The notes under the pieces are model-generated. The model made no database searches, was not told the origin of the DNA, and saw nothing but the letters and a program-made list of their open reading frames with translations. Below, one piece after another: positions 857 to 6,305 of a stretch of DNA of 6,531 nt. The first letter of the stretch is position 1; each line of letters begins with the position of its first letter. The DNA is from Erysipelotrichaceae bacterium (lineage in GTDB: Bacteria > Bacillota_I > Bacilli_A > Erysipelotrichales > Erysipelotrichaceae): positions 1 through 6,531 of the forward strand of contig DMBB01000378.1 of the NCBI GenBank assembly GCA_003446295.1, written 5' to 3'. Position numbers and translations under genes: made by a program.

Positions 857-887
857 GGTCCTGCATATCAATGCAGGGCCGCTTTTT
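857..887 (+). terminator. Strong intrinsic terminator of the MATE gene
   Basis: A ten-pair stem (857-866 with 871-880, one G.U pair, core CCTGCAT/ATGCAGG) closes a four-base loop ATCA and is followed by GC and five T (883-887). It begins 8 bases after the MATE stop. Only 31 bases separate it from the next start codon, so expression of the ferredoxin gene must come from read-through or from a very compact promoter. Confidence 0.9.
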
Positions 888-918
888 CAGACTGATATCA
901 TATTGGGAGAACAAGATC

Positions 919-1800
919 ATGAAAAGACATTTTGACAGGATCCACTGTACCGGCTGCGGAAACTGCATCCGTTTCTGCCCAAAAGGCATTCTGAAGCTCA
1001 GCGAAGAACCTGATGAACAGGGAATCTATATTACGGTAACTGATGAAAAGGCCTGCATATCCTGCAGAAGCTGTGAAACGATGTGCACCAGGGGTGCTTT
1101 CTGGTTTTCAGATACAGATCAGATGCCGGAAGATATCCGGATCATGGGAAGAGAGGGTCTTCCGGATCATGCAGGATGCCAGTTCGGCATCATGGCGCAT
1201 ATGCTTTCCAGGGCAATCGTGAATCTCGGAATCGAAGATCAGGTCACCATTTTCCGGAGTGAGCGCTCTGAAGCGAACCTTCTGGTGGATTCCAGAGGAT
1301 ATGAAGCGCCGCACTTCTTTGAAGAAGGAATAAAGTTCAAACAGGAACACCCGGAACGGCTCGTCATCATTTTCTATTCCGATCCGAAAGCCGGTCCGCA
1401 TGAACATGCGAAAAAACTGTTTTCACAGCTGAAAGATGAAAATATTACGCTGATCCACTGCCTTGGATACTTTGAACAGACAGATGACTATCAGGGATAC
1501 AGGATCCCTTCAGAGCATCTTGCAGAACAGATGGCAGTGAAGGATGGCATATCCTATATTGCAAGGGGAAATCTGACATCAGTGGCTGAGACACTGAAAA
1601 CCGAAAGATATATGGAAGAGGCACTGCGCTGTCAGATGAGAGGGGAAGGCACTTCGGTCACGGAGATCATTTTCCCTTGTTTCTTCAGACTCGAAAACCG
1701 GCCGAAGGATCCGATCACTCCCGAAACAAGAGAGCGGATCCATGCATGGTTCTCAGACAATATCGTTCCGGAATTCAAACCGGGAGTACTTAAGGGATAA
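919..1800 (+). CDS. Two-[4Fe-4S] ferredoxin domain fused to a degenerate 2-oxoacid:ferredoxin oxidoreductase beta-like (TPP-fold) domain
   Basis: The start is ATG 919 (MKRHFDRIHCTGC) because GGGAGA at 905-910 is properly spaced; an in-frame TTG at 850 would run through the terminator. The protein has 293 residues. Residues 10-20 (C10, C13, C16, C20-P) and 46-56 (C46, C49, C52, C56) are two bacterial ferredoxin motifs. From about residue 84 it follows KorB/VorA-type beta subunits in order: AGCQFGIMAHML for CPGCGHGI, RGYEAPHFFEEGIK for HGRAPAVATGIK, ENITLI for the strand after the cofactor loop, DGISYIARGNL, ...EIIFPC, and the tail DNIVPEFKPGVLK. The TPP/Mg2+ motif GDGD...N is missing (FYSDPKAG at 152-159), as are the first Cys of CPGC and the VGCS loop. 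I infer an electron-transfer or regulatory protein rather than an active oxidoreductase. No alpha or gamma subunit lies beside it. A simpler automated name would be 4Fe-4S dicluster domain protein. Confidence 0.85.
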   Translation: MKRHFDRIHCTGCGNCIRFCPKGILKLSEEPDEQGIYITVTDEKACISCRSCETMCTRGAFWFSDTDQMPEDIRIMGREGLPDHAGCQFGIMAHMLSRAIVNLGIEDQVTIFRSERSEANLLVDSRGYEAPHFFEEGIKFKQEHPERLVIIFYSDPKAGPHEHAKKLFSQLKDENITLIHCLGYFEQTDDYQGYRIPSEHLAEQMAVKDGISYIARGNLTSVAETLKTERYMEEALRCQMRGEGTSVTEIIFPCFFRLENRPKDPITPETRERIHAWFSDNIVPEFKPGVLKG

Positions 1801-1999: not shown

Positions 2000-2012
2000 T
2001 ATACTTTTCGTA
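2000..2012 (+). promoter_or_regulatory. Putative -10 box giving a leaderless L,D-transpeptidase mRNA
   Basis: TATACT at 2000-2005 differs from TATAAT at one position. Only six bases (TTTTCG+T, 2006-2011) separate it from the ATG at 2012, so a normal start point would fall on or beside the A of the start codon. No Shine-Dalgarno sequence occurs in the 40 bases upstream of this ATG, in contrast to most other genes here. No convincing -35 hexamer is seen at the usual distance, so the promoter assignment is tentative. Confidence 0.4.
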
Positions 2013-3136
2013 TGTCTCGAAATAAAAGAAAAAGAAAGATCAACGTATTGAACCTGCTGCTGGTCATCCTGCTGGCAGTATGTACGGTAGCATTGGCTGC
2101 CGCCGGGATCCTGAAGGCTGCAGACTATCTGACCAACAGAAACAGCGGTCTGCAGGATGGAGGCGTGACCGCCGTGGAATACGGTACAGGCTCATCGGAG
2201 CCTCTGGATTATATCGATCAGGATACTGCACAGATCCGTGTGAAAGATGACCGGAAGATCGATACGTATCAGCTTGGCGATCAGGAGATCACATACATCG
2301 TAACGAAGAAAGGTTTGTTCGGCAGTTCCGAAAAAGAGATCACCAGGATATTTACCGTATCGGATACGCAGGCTCCTGTCATCACGACGGTGGAAACAGA
2401 ACTTGCAAGGGCGGTCAATGATGTCCTTGACCTGCAGGATCTGATCCTGTGCACCGATCCGGCTGACGGACAGCTGACATATTCTGATACATTGAGTCCG
2501 GGAACATGGACGAGCACGACAGATGCTGATATGGGGAAAGCAGGAAACTACACTGTGCAGGTACGTGCCATGGACAGCAACGAAAATACCGCAGAGGCGG
2601 TATTAAACCTCAGGGTGATCGGTGATCCGGCCGACAGCAATTCATTCTATGTCAAAGTCAACAGAGCGGCGAATACCGTTACCGTATATGAAAAGAACGC
2701 AGACGGAACGGCAGGAACACCTTTGAAAGCAATGATCTGCTCAACAGGTGACGCAACACCGCTCGGTACATACAGTACATTCAATCGTTCAACATGGAGA
2801 TCATTGTTCGGCGGTGTTTACGGCCAGTATGCAACGGATATCGTAGGGAATATTCTGTTTCATTCCGTTCCGTATTTTTCCGCATCAAAAAATGATCTGG
2901 AATATCTGGAATACAACAAGCTCGGCACTGCTGCATCCATGGGGTGCGTCAGATTATGTGTGCGGGATGTCAAATGGATCTTTGAGAACTGTGCGATCGG
3001 CACAACTGTAGAATTCTACGATGATGCGGAAAATCCCGGTCCGCTGGGAAAACCCGAACCGATCATCATTGATACAGCAAGTGCCAACAGGGGATGGGAT
3101 CCGACGGATCCTGACCCGCAGAATCCATGGAATTGA
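2012..3136 (+). CDS. Membrane-anchored L,D-transpeptidase (YkuD domain) with Ig-like extracellular region
   Basis: The protein has 374 residues. Residues 1-10 are strongly basic (SRNKRKRK), and 11-36 form one hydrophobic helix without a lipobox, giving a type II membrane anchor. Residues about 65-118 and 119-204 resemble two beta-sandwich Ig-like/HYR modules (the second opens SDTQAPVIT and ends AEAVLNLRVIG). Residues about 211-337 are the YkuD catalytic domain, with TPLGTYST (249-256), the catalytic His in FHSVPY (H284) and the nucleophile in SMGCVRL (C312, with R314). These enzymes make 3-3 crosslinks in peptidoglycan or attach proteins to it, outside the membrane. The tail is rich in Asp, Pro and Trp. 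In-frame stop TAG at 1997 rules out a longer start; ATG 2012 keeps the basic stretch in front of the helix. It lies 30 bases before the transporter gene, probably in one operon. Confidence 0.92.
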   Translation: MSRNKRKRKINVLNLLLVILLAVCTVALAAAGILKAADYLTNRNSGLQDGGVTAVEYGTGSSEPLDYIDQDTAQIRVKDDRKIDTYQLGDQEITYIVTKKGLFGSSEKEITRIFTVSDTQAPVITTVETELARAVNDVLDLQDLILCTDPADGQLTYSDTLSPGTWTSTTDADMGKAGNYTVQVRAMDSNENTAEAVLNLRVIGDPADSNSFYVKVNRAANTVTVYEKNADGTAGTPLKAMICSTGDATPLGTYSTFNRSTWRSLFGGVYGQYATDIVGNILFHSVPYFSASKNDLEYLEYNKLGTAASMGCVRLCVRDVKWIFENCAIGTTVEFYDDAENPGPLGKPEPIIIDTASANRGWDPTDPDPQNPWN

Positions 3137-3157: not shown

Positions 3158-3166
3158 ATGACAACA

Positions 3167-4519
3167 ATGACAAGAGAAAAATTCGGTTCAAGGCTTGGCT
3201 TCCTTCTGGTCAGCGCAGGATGTGCGATCGGAATCGGCAACGTATGGAAGTTTCCGTATGTGACCGGGGAGAACGGCGGAGGTATTTTCGTATTGTTTTA
3301 TCTGCTGTTTCTGCTGATCATGGGCCTGCCTGTATTAACGATGGAGCTGGCAGTAGGCAGAGCTTCACGCAAAAGTGCAGTGCTGGCATATCAGACATTG
3401 GAGAAACCGGGATCCTTCTGGCATCTTCATGGCTGGGTAGCGATCGCAGGATGCTATTTGCTGATGATGTATTACACGACCGTTTCAGGATGGATGGTCA
3501 GCTATTTTGTGAAGTTCATGACCGGAACATTCGCGGGCGTATCTGTGGAAGAAACAACCGGGGTATTCGGCGCGATGATGTCAAATCCGGTAGAAATGAC
3601 GGCTTTCATGGCACTGACCGTATTTGCCGGATTCCTTGTATGCTCGCTTGGACTTCAGAACGGAATTGAGCGCATTACAAAGGTCATGATGCTCGGCCTG
3701 CTGATGCTGATCATCGTACTGGCAGTGCACTGTATTGGTCTTCCGGGAGCCATGAAGGGCGTGTCCTTCTATCTGAAGCCGGATCCTGCAGAAGCATCTC
3801 GTGTCGGTCTGTTCAATGTAATGACCGCTGCGATGAGCCAGTCCTTCTTTACCCTGAGTCTTGGCGTGGCATCCATGGAGATCTTCGGAAGCTACATGAG
3901 CAAAGACAATACACTGATGCAGGAATCCTTCTGGATCTGCATTCTGGATACATTTGTTGCGCTTGTCAGCGGTCTGATCATTTTCCCGGCATGCTTCAGC
4001 TTCGGTATACAGCCTGACGCCGGTCCGGATCTGATCTTCATTACACTTCCTAAAGTATTCATGAGCATGGCCGGAGGAAGACTGTGGGGAACGCTGTTCT
4101 TCCTGTTCATGACATTTGCAAGCTTCTCAACAGTCATCGCGGTATTCGAGAACCTGATCTCCTGCTGCATCGACAACTTCGGATGGAACAGAAAAAAAGC
4201 GGTCACCATCAATCTGCTGTTCATGCTGGCCGCCAGTATGCCTTGTGTTCTCGGTTTCAATGTCTGGAGCAGCTGGCATCCGATCGGAACGATGGATGTG
4301 CTCGGCAGTGAAGACTTTATCGTATCCAATATCCTGCTGCCCGCAGGTGCGCTGATCTATCTCCTGTTCTGCACCACAAAATGGGGCTGGGGATTCGACA
4401 ATTACATTGTCGAAGCAAATACCGGAAGCGGAATGAAGATGCCTGTATGGCTGAAAGGATACTTCCAGTGGATCCTGCCGCTTCTGATCGTCGGTATATT
4501 TGTTACCGGATTACTATAA
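3167..4519 (+). CDS. Neurotransmitter:sodium symporter (NSS/SNF) family amino-acid transporter, 11-helix type
   Basis: From ATG 3167 the protein has 450 residues. Helix 1 carries the family signature GCAIGIGNVWKFPY (18-31; N25 corresponds to a Na+ ligand in LeuT), followed by ENGGGIF and helix 2 ending in PVLTMELAVGR. Helix 6, around SQSFFTLSLGVASMEIF, is the unwound substrate-binding helix. Helix 8, with FASFSTVIAVFE (318-328), supplies Ser/Thr side chains for the second sodium site. Hydrophobic segments by eye are about 9-31, 38-63, 87-115, 143-163, 169-192, 216-240, 254-280, 303-336, 343-362, 382-404 and 430-450, eleven in all, ending directly after helix 11. Bacterial members with eleven helices, such as MhsT, import hydrophobic or aromatic amino acids with Na+; the substrate here is not determined. 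It probably shares a transcript with the L,D-transpeptidase, since the 30-base gap holds no promoter or terminator. Confidence 0.93.
   Translation: MTREKFGSRLGFLLVSAGCAIGIGNVWKFPYVTGENGGGIFVLFYLLFLLIMGLPVLTMELAVGRASRKSAVLAYQTLEKPGSFWHLHGWVAIAGCYLLMMYYTTVSGWMVSYFVKFMTGTFAGVSVEETTGVFGAMMSNPVEMTAFMALTVFAGFLVCSLGLQNGIERITKVMMLGLLMLIIVLAVHCIGLPGAMKGVSFYLKPDPAEASRVGLFNVMTAAMSQSFFTLSLGVASMEIFGSYMSKDNTLMQESFWICILDTFVALVSGLIIFPACFSFGIQPDAGPDLIFITLPKVFMSMAGGRLWGTLFFLFMTFASFSTVIAVFENLISCCIDNFGWNRKKAVTINLLFMLAASMPCVLGFNVWSSWHPIGTMDVLGSEDFIVSNILLPAGALIYLLFCTTKWGWGFDNYIVEANTGSGMKMPVWLKGYFQWILPLLIVGIFVTGLL
4514..4519. other. Tail-to-tail overlap of the transporter and glucosidase stop codons
   Basis: The + strand TAA of the transporter occupies 4517-4519, and the - strand TAG of the GH1 gene occupies 4514-4516 (CTA on +). 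The two convergent genes therefore overlap by six bases and leave no intergenic room for terminators. Confidence 0.9.
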
Positions 4520-5875
4520 TATTTCACCATTTGAAGCTATTACCTGTTTCAGCCAGTAATAGCTTTTTTTAGGTACCCGCTTCATGTCTCTGAGATCATG
4601 GTTGCCGCGGTTGACATATACGACACCGTAGCGCTTCTCCATATCTCCATGGGAACTCAGGATATCGATCAGACCCCAGCCAAGATATCCGAGCACTTCG
4701 ACGCCATCCAGATCCATAGCTTCTTTCATGGCTTTGATGTGAGCTCTGTGATAATCGATCCTGTAGTCATCTTCGATCATATCCGTGCCGTTCCATGTTT
4801 CGCGGACACCGATCCCGTTTTCGATCGGGAATACGGGTATCCTGTATCTGCTGTACATAGCAGTCATGATCGTCCGGAATCCTTCCGGATCGATCTGCCA
4901 TCCCCATTCACTGGCTTTCAGATAAGGATTCTGTACATTGCCGTATTTGCCGTATTCGTAAACAGAGGCACCGGCAGGCAGACGCCCAGAGTCAATGACG
5001 CCTGACTGGTAATAACTGAATGCGATATAGTCGGATCTGCACTGTCCGATCGCTTCCAGTTCTTCTTTTGTCATATCTATACAGATACCGGAAGTGCTGA
5101 GATATTTCATAAACAGCGGAGAATATCCTCTGCCGGCAAATGCATCCATCAGATTGTAATACATCAGTTCGTTGAAGCGCTCGGCTGCCTGTACGTCCTC
5201 CGGCCTGCATGAGGCAGGATAACGCGGCGTATACGCCACCATTCCGCCGATCAGGGCATTGGTATGTTCATGGAGGTAATTGCTTAATATGCAGTGTGCT
5301 GCCATGACATTGTGCGTGATCTGAAGCAGATTCTGCTCTGAGGGCTCTGCCTTGAGAACACCTGCGATCCGGTATGCGATCGGGGAGGAGTAAAGATTCT
5401 GCTCATTGAATGTGATCCAGTACTTCACTTTGTGTGCAAAACGGTCGATGATCTTTTTGCCGAAACGCACAAAACAGCGAACTGTTTCTTTGGAAAGGAA
5501 TCCGTCAAACTGTTCTGCCAGATAAAGCGGCATATCAAAATGATACAGACAGATCATCGGTTCAATACCGCGCTCGATCAGCGCGTCAATGAATCTGTCA
5601 TAATACTGCAGACCTTCTTCGTTGAATTCTCCGCAGCCATCCTTGACGCATCTGCTCCATGAGATCTGGAAACGGTACATGTTCATTCCCAGGTCCTTCA
5701 TCAGATCCATGTCTTCTTCGAAGTGATGATAATTGTCATTGGCAAAGTGCCAGTCGCTTTTATGTTCTTCTGCTTCCTGAATATCATAAACGGATAAGGA
5801 CTTGCCGCCTTCATTCCATCCGCCTTCTGTCTGCATGCTGGAAACACTGTTGCCCCAGAAAAATGAATGATCCAT
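4514..5875 (-). CDS. GH1 family 6-phospho-beta-glucosidase
   Basis: The start is ATG at 5875-5873, chosen because AAGGAG (5884-5889 on +) precedes it by eight bases; an in-frame start at 5929 would overlap the upstream gene and has no such site. The protein has 453 residues, the normal GH1 barrel length. Visible motifs are Q15-T-E-G in the glycone pocket, YHFDMP (111-116), acid/base E158 in TFNEQN, nucleophile E352 in PIENG, and W-G-W at 324-326. S408, K414 and Y416 (SSHGDMEKRYG) match the Ser/Lys/Tyr phosphate-binding pattern of phospho-glycosidases, which supports a phosphorylated substrate such as cellobiose- or arbutin-6-phosphate delivered by a PTS. It acts in the cytoplasm and should yield glucose 6-phosphate plus glucose or an aglycone. 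It follows the deformylase-like gene by 19 bases and probably shares its transcript. 6-Phospho-beta-galactosidase is less likely, because the Trp typical of those enzymes before the phosphate site is absent. Confidence 0.92.
   Translation of the reverse strand: MDHSFFWGNSVSSMQTEGGWNEGGKSLSVYDIQEAEEHKSDWHFANDNYHHFEEDMDLMKDLGMNMYRFQISWSRCVKDGCGEFNEEGLQYYDRFIDALIERGIEPMICLYHFDMPLYLAEQFDGFLSKETVRCFVRFGKKIIDRFAHKVKYWITFNEQNLYSSPIAYRIAGVLKAEPSEQNLLQITHNVMAAHCILSNYLHEHTNALIGGMVAYTPRYPASCRPEDVQAAERFNELMYYNLMDAFAGRGYSPLFMKYLSTSGICIDMTKEELEAIGQCRSDYIAFSYYQSGVIDSGRLPAGASVYEYGKYGNVQNPYLKASEWGWQIDPEGFRTIMTAMYSRYRIPVFPIENGIGVRETWNGTDMIEDDYRIDYHRAHIKAMKEAMDLDGVEVLGYLGWGLIDILSSHGDMEKRYGVVYVNRGNHDLRDMKRVPKKSYYWLKQVIASNGEIL
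4534..4570 (+). terminator. Intrinsic terminator of the transporter operon, located inside the convergent GH1 coding sequence
   Basis: AAGCTATTAC (4534-4543) pairs perfectly with GTAATAGCTT (4556-4565) around a 12-base loop, and a run of seven T lies at 4564-4570. It is 15 bases past the transporter stop. Read on the other strand, the same bases encode the conserved C-terminal GH1 segment KKSYYWLKQVIAS. In that direction the stem is followed by TCAAATGG rather than T residues, so it should act only on + strand transcripts. Confidence 0.85.
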
Positions 5876-5883
5876 AGTGATTG

Positions 5884-5889
5884 CTCCTT
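5884..5889 (-). promoter_or_regulatory. Shine-Dalgarno site deciding the GH1 start
   Basis: On the - strand AAGGAG stands eight bases upstream of the ATG at 5875. It falls in the 19-base gap after the deformylase stop codon and fixes the shorter GH1 start. Confidence 0.75.
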
Positions 5890-5894
5890 GCTGT

Positions 5895-6305
5895 TCAGAT
5901 AACGATCCCGTTGGTATGGTCGATCTCATGCTGAATGATCTGTGCTGTATAACCGGTAAACTTCTGCTGTTTCTTATGGAAAGACAGGTCCTGGTAAGAG
6001 ACAGTGATGTTTTTATAGCGTGTTGTCTTTCTTGTTCCGCTCAGGCTCAGACAGCCTTCTTCTGTTTCATAAGGACCGGATCGTGCGGTAATGACAGGAT
6101 TCATCATGCAGAAAACAGCCGGACCCGTGCTGAAAACAATGATCCGCTTCAATACGCCGATCATATTTGCGGCCATGCCTACGCATGACGCTCTGTGGCT
6201 TTTTAAGGTGTCCATCAGATCCATTGCTGTTGGCAGATCGGAAATATCTGCGTCTTTTGATGGACGTGAAAGAAGAAGCATATCTTTACATATTGTCCGT
6301 TCCAT
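5895..6305 (-). CDS. def: Peptide deformylase-like protein (short Firmicutes type, altered motif 1)
   Basis: The protein has 136 residues and starts at ATG 6305-6303; AAAAGAGG (6310-6317 on +) precedes it with a four-base spacer. Peptide deformylases remove the formyl group from the initiator Met of new proteins in the cytoplasm, using a metal held by one Cys and two His. Motif 2 is EGCLSL (C85) and motif 3 is QHEIDH (H126, E127, H130), so metal ligands and catalytic Glu are intact. Motif 1 reads VGMAANMIG (42-50): the Gln of the usual G-x-G-x-A-A-x-Q, which stabilises the transition state, is Met (M48). This variant recurs, as I recall, in a short Def group in Lachnospiraceae and relatives. 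Such organisms often also have a canonical Def, so this may be a second copy with reduced or different activity. It is the first gene of a probable two-gene operon with the GH1 enzyme. Confidence 0.9.
   Translation of the reverse strand: MERTICKDMLLLSRPSKDADISDLPTAMDLMDTLKSHRASCVGMAANMIGVLKRIIVFSTGPAVFCMMNPVITARSGPYETEEGCLSLSGTRKTTRYKNITVSYQDLSFHKKQQKFTGYTAQIIQHEIDHTNGIVI

Follow-up and report, generated by a model that had tools for sequence, protein, structure and literature searches.

The window analysed here, a 6,531-nucleotide stretch of Erysipelotrichaceae bacterium DNA (contig DMBB01000378.1), encodes at positions 919..1800 a protein of 293 residues, P0001, which is a ferredoxin-fused relative of the beta subunits of 2-oxoacid:ferredoxin oxidoreductases (OFOR) without their thiamine diphosphate site. 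A preliminary description of the gene had proposed this identity, for which gene neighbourhoods, the family alignment, structure and profile comparison now all provide support. P0001 belongs to a family of KorD-KorB fusions that probably moves or senses electrons instead of oxidising keto acids.

Alignment A3 comprises 52 family members: 47 of the 52 proteins retrieved by our last search, the translations of four loci (P0010-P0013), and P0001 itself. We left out P0002 (98% identical), the fragments P0005 and P0009, and the near-copies P0050 and P0052 of P0049. Counts out of 53 include the protein of genome G310, and the joint alignment contains these 53 members and 12 KorB. The features of the gene and its protein are:

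919..1800 (+): KorD-KorB-like fusion gene encoding P0001; intact open reading frame (ORF), relatives found
905..909 (+): likely ribosome-binding site GGGAG, nine bases 5' of the ATG at 919, from reading the sequence
919..1113 (+): KorD (delta)-like dicluster ferredoxin domain, residues 1-65 (Pfam Fer4_7, 2.6e-10; hhalign against KorD)
946..978 (+): first 4Fe-4S motif, C10-x2-C13-x2-C16-x3-C20, four Cys invariant (52/52)
1054..1086 (+): second 4Fe-4S motif, C46-x2-C49-x2-C52-x3-C56, four Cys invariant (52/52)
1123..1797 (+): KorB (beta)-like domain, residues 69-293
1168..1179 (+): H84-A-G-C87 where KorB has the CPGC motif of the proximal cluster; three residues (H, G, C) invariant
1378..1389 (+): S154-D-P-K157 at the position of the Mg/thiamine diphosphate motif GDGD (joint alignment)
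1462..1467 (+): L182-G183 at the KorB Asn-Asn pair; the KorB loop that follows is deleted (joint alignment)
1672..1704 (+): FPCFFRLENRP, in which C254 is the retained C-terminal Cys of the KorB cluster site (C in 53/53)

Origin of the fusion

The two halves of the family match two different OFOR subunits. When compared using hhalign, the beta part of A3 matched 12 KorB with a probability of 99.2% (single-pair E of 1.1e-19, 199 columns), and the ferredoxin part matched 12 KorD with a probability of 99.4% (68 columns, 34% identity). As a control, both parts were compared with 11 KorA and gave 0.1-0.2%. The C-terminal halves of four pyruvate:ferredoxin oxidoreductases (PFOR) matched the ferredoxin part (95.6%) and not the beta part (0.1%). 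The profile comparison and a structure model agree that residues 69-293 have the beta-subunit fold. The N-terminal domain combines two complete C-x2-C-x2-C-x3-C motifs, already recognised as intact in the preliminary description (C10/13/16/20 and C46/49/52/56), with a KorD-like sequence. That description had also aligned the beta part with KorB-type subunits up to its C-terminal end, which hhalign, the structure and the joint alignment bear out. The structure superposition and profile search that it had suggested for this part both give the KorB relation.

In several relatives (e.g., G034 C46) the family profile matched two genes of one operon. The first is a short ferredoxin, matched at residues ~4-84, and the second an open frame of 249-280 aa, matched at residues ~196-263. 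These operons are korD-korA-korB. Since the KorB and KorD matches are strong and the PFOR beta match is 0.1%, the fusion likely derives, as judged from the sequences, from KorD and KorB, skipping the alpha subunit and including no piece of PFOR. We rejected a C-terminal PFOR fragment as the origin on the same 0.1% for the beta domain. We also dropped the idea that the linker holds a fossil of the start of KorA (some matches span 4-84 through the korD stop), given the 0.1-0.2% obtained with the KorA profile.

Loss of the thiamine diphosphate site

StOFOR2 holds Mg close to the pyrophosphate of thiamine diphosphate through Gly-Asp-Gly (89-91 beta) and Asn118 beta (PMC5020499). The GDGD motif is intact in all 12 KorB, and GDG is found at this position in none of the 53 family members, which have SSSK (29), ASSK (10), SDPK (6), NSSK (3), GSSK (2), PTVY, TSYK or TDEE (one each). 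The lone GDG string in the family (in P0044) is located away from the site. The Asn-Asn pair is replaced by LN (44), LG (6), NM, MN or QN (one each). Hence, no member combines GDG with the Asn that would hold Mg and thiamine diphosphate. The HGR motif is equally absent, as all eight positions of its stretch are gaps in 53/53. In the loop that follows the Asn-Asn pair (YGMTGGQMAPTS), 11 of the 12 positions are gapped, again in every member.

The preliminary description had reported the replacement of all three motifs in P0001, and had asked whether all homologues share the loss; with GDG and HGR at 0/53, the members counted here do. LGYF indeed stands at the position of NNAI. SDPK stands at the GDGD site, with the refinement that Asp155 of the window clade still occupies the position of the GDGD Asp, its partner Asn being a Gly. 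HGR is lost as stated, but its stretch is deleted in all members and not merely altered to RGY. The Asp is kept in seven members (the six of the window clade and G310) and the second Asn in 46. They are combined only in the distant G310; the window protein has the Asp without the Asn. This pattern of survival suggests that the site decayed stepwise on separate branches.

The proximal cluster site

In StOFOR2 a CXGC loop ligates the proximal cluster (PMC5020499). Past residue 66, CxGC is found in none of the 53 members and HxGC in all of them, in line with the earlier observation that CPGC keeps a single Cys (HAGC in P0001). The third KorB Cys is missing from every member, and the C-terminal one (C254) is present in all. 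We take these two to be the further ligands of the proximal 4Fe-4S cluster in KorB. No member thus has CxGC together with two further Cys. H84, C87, P253 and C254 are invariant (53/53). The lost first Cys of CxGC is accompanied by an invariant His three residues ahead of the kept Cys, and the MAFFT alignment places a two-residue deletion here, which makes this H84 the counterpart of the His in KorB HYCPGC. H84 may either substitute for the Cys or descend from the HYCPGC His through such a deletion.

The closest known systems are KorB/OorB, KorD/OorD and PFOR (NifJ). The family shares with KorB/OorB (Helicobacter pylori OorDABC, PDB 8ys5; M. marinus OGOR, 6n2n; StOFOR, 5b46-5b48) the fold over residues 69-293, the GC-x2-G motif, the C-terminal cluster Cys and the C-terminal tail. 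It differs from them in lacking GDG at the site, HGR, the cofactor loops, and the first and third cluster Cys, in having a ferredoxin fused in front, and in that the alpha subunit is not adjacent. KorD/OorD matches the entire N-terminal domain, with both 4Fe-4S motifs. Here that domain is fused to the beta domain; each of the 12 korD-korA-korB operons encodes KorD as a short protein of its own, of 68-87 aa by the ORF calls. Domains V-VI of PFOR (NifJ) have the same order of ferredoxin then beta, and the model aligns over the beta domain and part of the ferredoxin domain, but the beta domain of the family is KorB-like (99.2%) and not PFOR-like (0.1%), and there is no alpha or gamma part. The family lacks defining features of OFOR enzymes, and that name should not be applied to it.

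Family, distribution and selection

A search with the single sequence retrieved 8 proteins, and a profile of six retrieved the same 8. Scanning genomes of the taxonomic family of L001, a locus closely related to that of the window, added four remote full-length relatives with 29-33% identity to P0007. The last protein search, which included these remote relatives, found 52 proteins, of which 50 have 285-303 aa and two are fragments (225 and 162 aa). Two of the proteins, P0014 and P0015, nearly duplicate P0010 and P0011. The shorter fragment, P0009, matches over its first ~80 residues and then runs out of register, as would a frame-shifted copy or an assembly error.

The distribution is sparse. 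Of the 70 genomes of the genus, four have full-length matches and 68 have some match at 0.001, the other listed ones being over ferredoxin or KorB segments. Relatives were found in at least 8 of 272 genomes at the family level (E of 1e-20), at least 9 of 315 at the order level (1e-15), and at least 2 of 392 and 2 of 395 in the phylum and class samples. These are lower bounds, since the family, order, phylum and class scans scored at most 9, 7, 6 and 6 first-look candidates per genome, respectively. In the family of G310, one genome out of 43 has a relative. The four nearest relatives are metagenome-assembled genomes (MAGs) of Solobacterium/Erysipelotrichaceae, two of them, by title, from goat jejunum and dairy cattle duodenum. 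Five loci came out of the genome scan, but the fifth (L005, an archaeal MAG) is a 33-residue ferredoxin match alone.

In a tree of the 53 members and the 12 KorB (a narrow outgroup, all from the same order), the family is separated from KorB by a branch with 100/100 support. The window group of six adjoins the other 46, with G310 as the outermost branch; P0012 and G310, both on long branches, are of unsure placement. In A3, 27 columns are invariant (52/52), including all eight ferredoxin Cys and the aromatic F112 and F185, the latter at the position of the KorB cofactor loop. The dN/dS ratios (non-synonymous to synonymous substitution rates) of the window gene against L001-L004 are 0.083, 0.083, 0.084 and 0.091, and those of four neighbour genes against L001 are 0.079, 0.083, 0.097 and 0.052. 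The fusion gene is under purifying selection, on a par with its intact neighbours.

Genomic context

No gene for an alpha, gamma or delta partner lies beside the gene in the window, as had been noted. The protein family POR_N, which marks the alpha subunit, matched a single protein in each of the genomes G001-G004 (the closest relatives of the window), in frames of 1188-1221 aa; the contigs in question also carry TPP_enzyme_C matches. This protein is a one-chain PFOR with its own beta domain. G140, G167, G172, G174 and G310 each have a POR_N frame of 1175-1196 aa, taken as PFOR by its length, so that all nine genomes examined carry a PFOR-sized POR_N protein. We found no other POR_N in G001-G004 and G140.

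The other features of the window, and the loci of distant relatives discussed below, are:

1-849: MATE gene, cut by the window start (profile match)
857..880 (+): hairpin and T run between the MATE and fusion genes, probable MATE terminator
2012-3136: YkuD L,D-transpeptidase
3158-4519: sodium-dependent transporter
4514-5929 (-): GH1 glycosidase
L055 7887-8771, L056 7583-8467, L057 2217-3104: relatives within an operon of LicT-type antiterminator, phosphotransferase system (PTS) IIA and PTS IIBC
L080 8462-10751: G310 relative; overlap of up to 26 nt with a gene of 6-phospho-beta-glucosidase type, and an RpiR-type regulator upstream

Profile matches confirm the flanking MATE and L,D-transpeptidase (YkuD) genes named in the preliminary description. 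A peptide deformylase gene lies on the opposite strand (-). L001 has the same neighbours as the window, and L002 (protein 84% identical) has pckA upstream where the window has MATE. A hairpin similar by eye occurs in L001, L003 and L004 but not L002; four sites with a hairpin and a T run were found in the region against 0.9 expected. The hairpin upstream and the replacement of MATE by pckA indicate that the fusion gene is probably transcribed alone in the window clade. For the same reasons we rejected MATE as a functional partner. We also dismissed the nearby GH1 gene as evidence, given the 20-48 GH1 matches in each of the nine genomes (a large expansion). The protein of this gene scored highest with 6-phospho-beta-glucosidase models, far below their curated cut-offs (359 vs 624 bits).

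Some distant relatives have another context. The word "orphan" used in the preliminary description therefore suits the window clade (L001 and L002 were read) and not G140, G172 and G174, whose loci L055, L056 and L057 are PTS operons, nor G310, with its GH1 overlap. In these three operons the antiterminator ORF overlaps the fusion gene by 20, 20 and 4 nt, and PTS IIA lies directly downstream, followed by a beta-glucoside-type IIBC. The listed IIA ORF begins inside the fusion gene, its likely start being within a few nt of the fusion-gene stop. We scanned L055 and L057 with profiles (L056 is near-identical). The best LicT model gave 2.8e-68 in L055 and 1.5e-67 in L057, both under its curated cut-off. 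L055 matched PTS_EIIA_1, EIIC and EIIB. L057 matched the beta-glucoside models for IIA (3.2e-50) and IIBC (8.5e-132), under their curated cut-offs, and the glucose-type IIA domain over its cut-off. This layout is probably one inherited arrangement. In the tree, P0010 and P0011 fall in different subgroups of a 45-member clade, and the arrangement was therefore kept over that spread.

In G167 a pyridoxal-phosphate synthase (SOR/SNZ) gene lies upstream and a flavodoxin-domain gene ~0.8 kb downstream. The antiterminator RNA-binding domain (CAT_RBD) is absent from G001-G004 and has 16, 2, 9, 5 and 7 matches in G140, G167, G172, G174 and G310. Given these base rates and those of GH1, the PTS link is suggestive in one clade and weak elsewhere. 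The 17 kb containing the G310 relative also include an ORF (L080 1838-2698, -) that reads by eye as a dicluster ferredoxin with a nitroreductase-like part.

Proposed role

Our preferred reading, which we hold tentatively and at a little less than even probability, is that of a stand-alone redox relay or carrier protein with an outside partner. In the fused chain, two or three iron-sulfur centres would form a fixed relay that takes electrons from a partner or passes them to it. A PFOR-sized POR_N protein is present in all nine genomes, which would make ferredoxin reduced by PFOR the obvious donor. The relay might carry electrons, or report redox state, in sugar-fermenting Erysipelotrichales, and the gene's place inside beta-glucoside-type PTS operons of some relatives suggests an effect of its output on sugar uptake in those. 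Several observations weigh against this reading. We identified no electron partner for the protein, and saw no operon partner in the window clade, with its upstream terminator-like hairpin and pckA instead of MATE in L002. A second POR_N protein scores over the cut-off in G167, G172, G174 and G310, where such a partner may thus exist. Finally, the loss of the third KorB Cys leaves only H84, C87 and C254 as candidate ligands at the proximal site.

The gene could instead encode a redox-responsive regulator of sugar uptake, which would sense reduced ferredoxin, oxygen or iron and act on the LicT-type antiterminator or on PTS IIA/IIBC. The overlap with the antiterminator ORF ahead of IIA and IIBC, the persistence of this arrangement across subgroups and the overlap in G310 speak for it. 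Yet, we consider it unlikely: none of the four closest relatives of the window has a CAT_RBD match, the three operons probably count as one event, and GH1 genes are so common that the G310 overlap may be chance. Were the fusion indeed to feed redox information into sugar uptake, fermentation driven by PFOR and control of the PTS would be connected in Erysipelotrichales of the gut and rumen.

Still less probable is an enzyme of a new type, in which H84, C87 and C254 at the former proximal site would hold a site-differentiated cluster with three ligands, or some other metal, that itself binds a small molecule and reduces it with electrons from the two ferredoxin clusters. The invariance of these residues and of P253 fits this idea, as does that of F112 and F185. 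Against it, we saw no substrate or pathway context, and His is a ligand by conjecture, since it may descend from HYCPGC. Similarly improbable is a broader version in which the dead OFOR beta subunit serves as an iron-sulfur enzyme or metabolite sensor: with the thiamine pocket closed, the His and two Cys would hold an open-iron cluster in which a built-in two-cluster wire ends and where reaction or sensing takes place; in some species the protein would be wired into sugar PTS operons. Were the modified site reactive, it would be a new iron-sulfur active site.

It is very improbable that the protein still functions as an OFOR beta subunit and binds thiamine diphosphate at an unusual site. Such a subunit could draw on the second Asn of 46 members, on the Asp of the window clade and G310, and on both in the outermost G310. 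However, GDG is at 0/53 (the first-position Gly remains in two), two loops are deleted in every member, and the only POR_N protein in G001-G004 and G140 is PFOR-sized. A remnant in decay, or a decoy, left over from a lost kor operon, which the lost catalytic motifs and the restriction of POR_N to PFOR in the four closest genomes might evoke, is barely credible for a single long-lived group (100/100 against KorB) with 27 invariant columns and dN/dS of 0.083-0.091, like intact neighbours. Among the redox sensor, electron-transfer adaptor and decoy first put forward, the decoy is the least likely in G001-G004, because their sole POR_N protein is a one-chain PFOR with its own beta domain. The family is a clear example of a module for electron wiring that purifying selection has maintained since the loss of its catalytic cofactor site.

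Recognition by sequence libraries

The KorB-derived half has been overlooked, as database names of relatives, where given, are "4Fe-4S dicluster domain-containing protein" or "hypothetical protein". Among the open-licence PMC papers listed by our searches, none describes such a KorD-KorB fusion family in its title or the start of its abstract, which is no proof of absence from print. Pfam matched P0001 exclusively with 4Fe-4S families, and the 52 members of A3 with 4Fe-4S-type families plus a weak UL40 match in two (best 0.0036). NCBIfam matched P0001 with 83 families, the best 25 being iron-sulfur proteins matched through the ferredoxin part. The same part accounts for the PDB sequence matches (the best 60 of 117 and the best 60 of 178), headed by polyferredoxins and photosystem ferredoxins over the first ~85 positions. 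Hence, the KorB-like part is invisible to Pfam and NCBIfam, and is seen by profile-profile comparison, tblastn of P0019 and structure. The viral contigs searched held no relative of the fusion protein. A scan for RNA families found nothing beside the fusion gene, and one tRNA in L058. The plasmid search with P0019 returned two records, a thiamine-dependent enzyme (6e-7, residues 139-297) and a ferredoxin.
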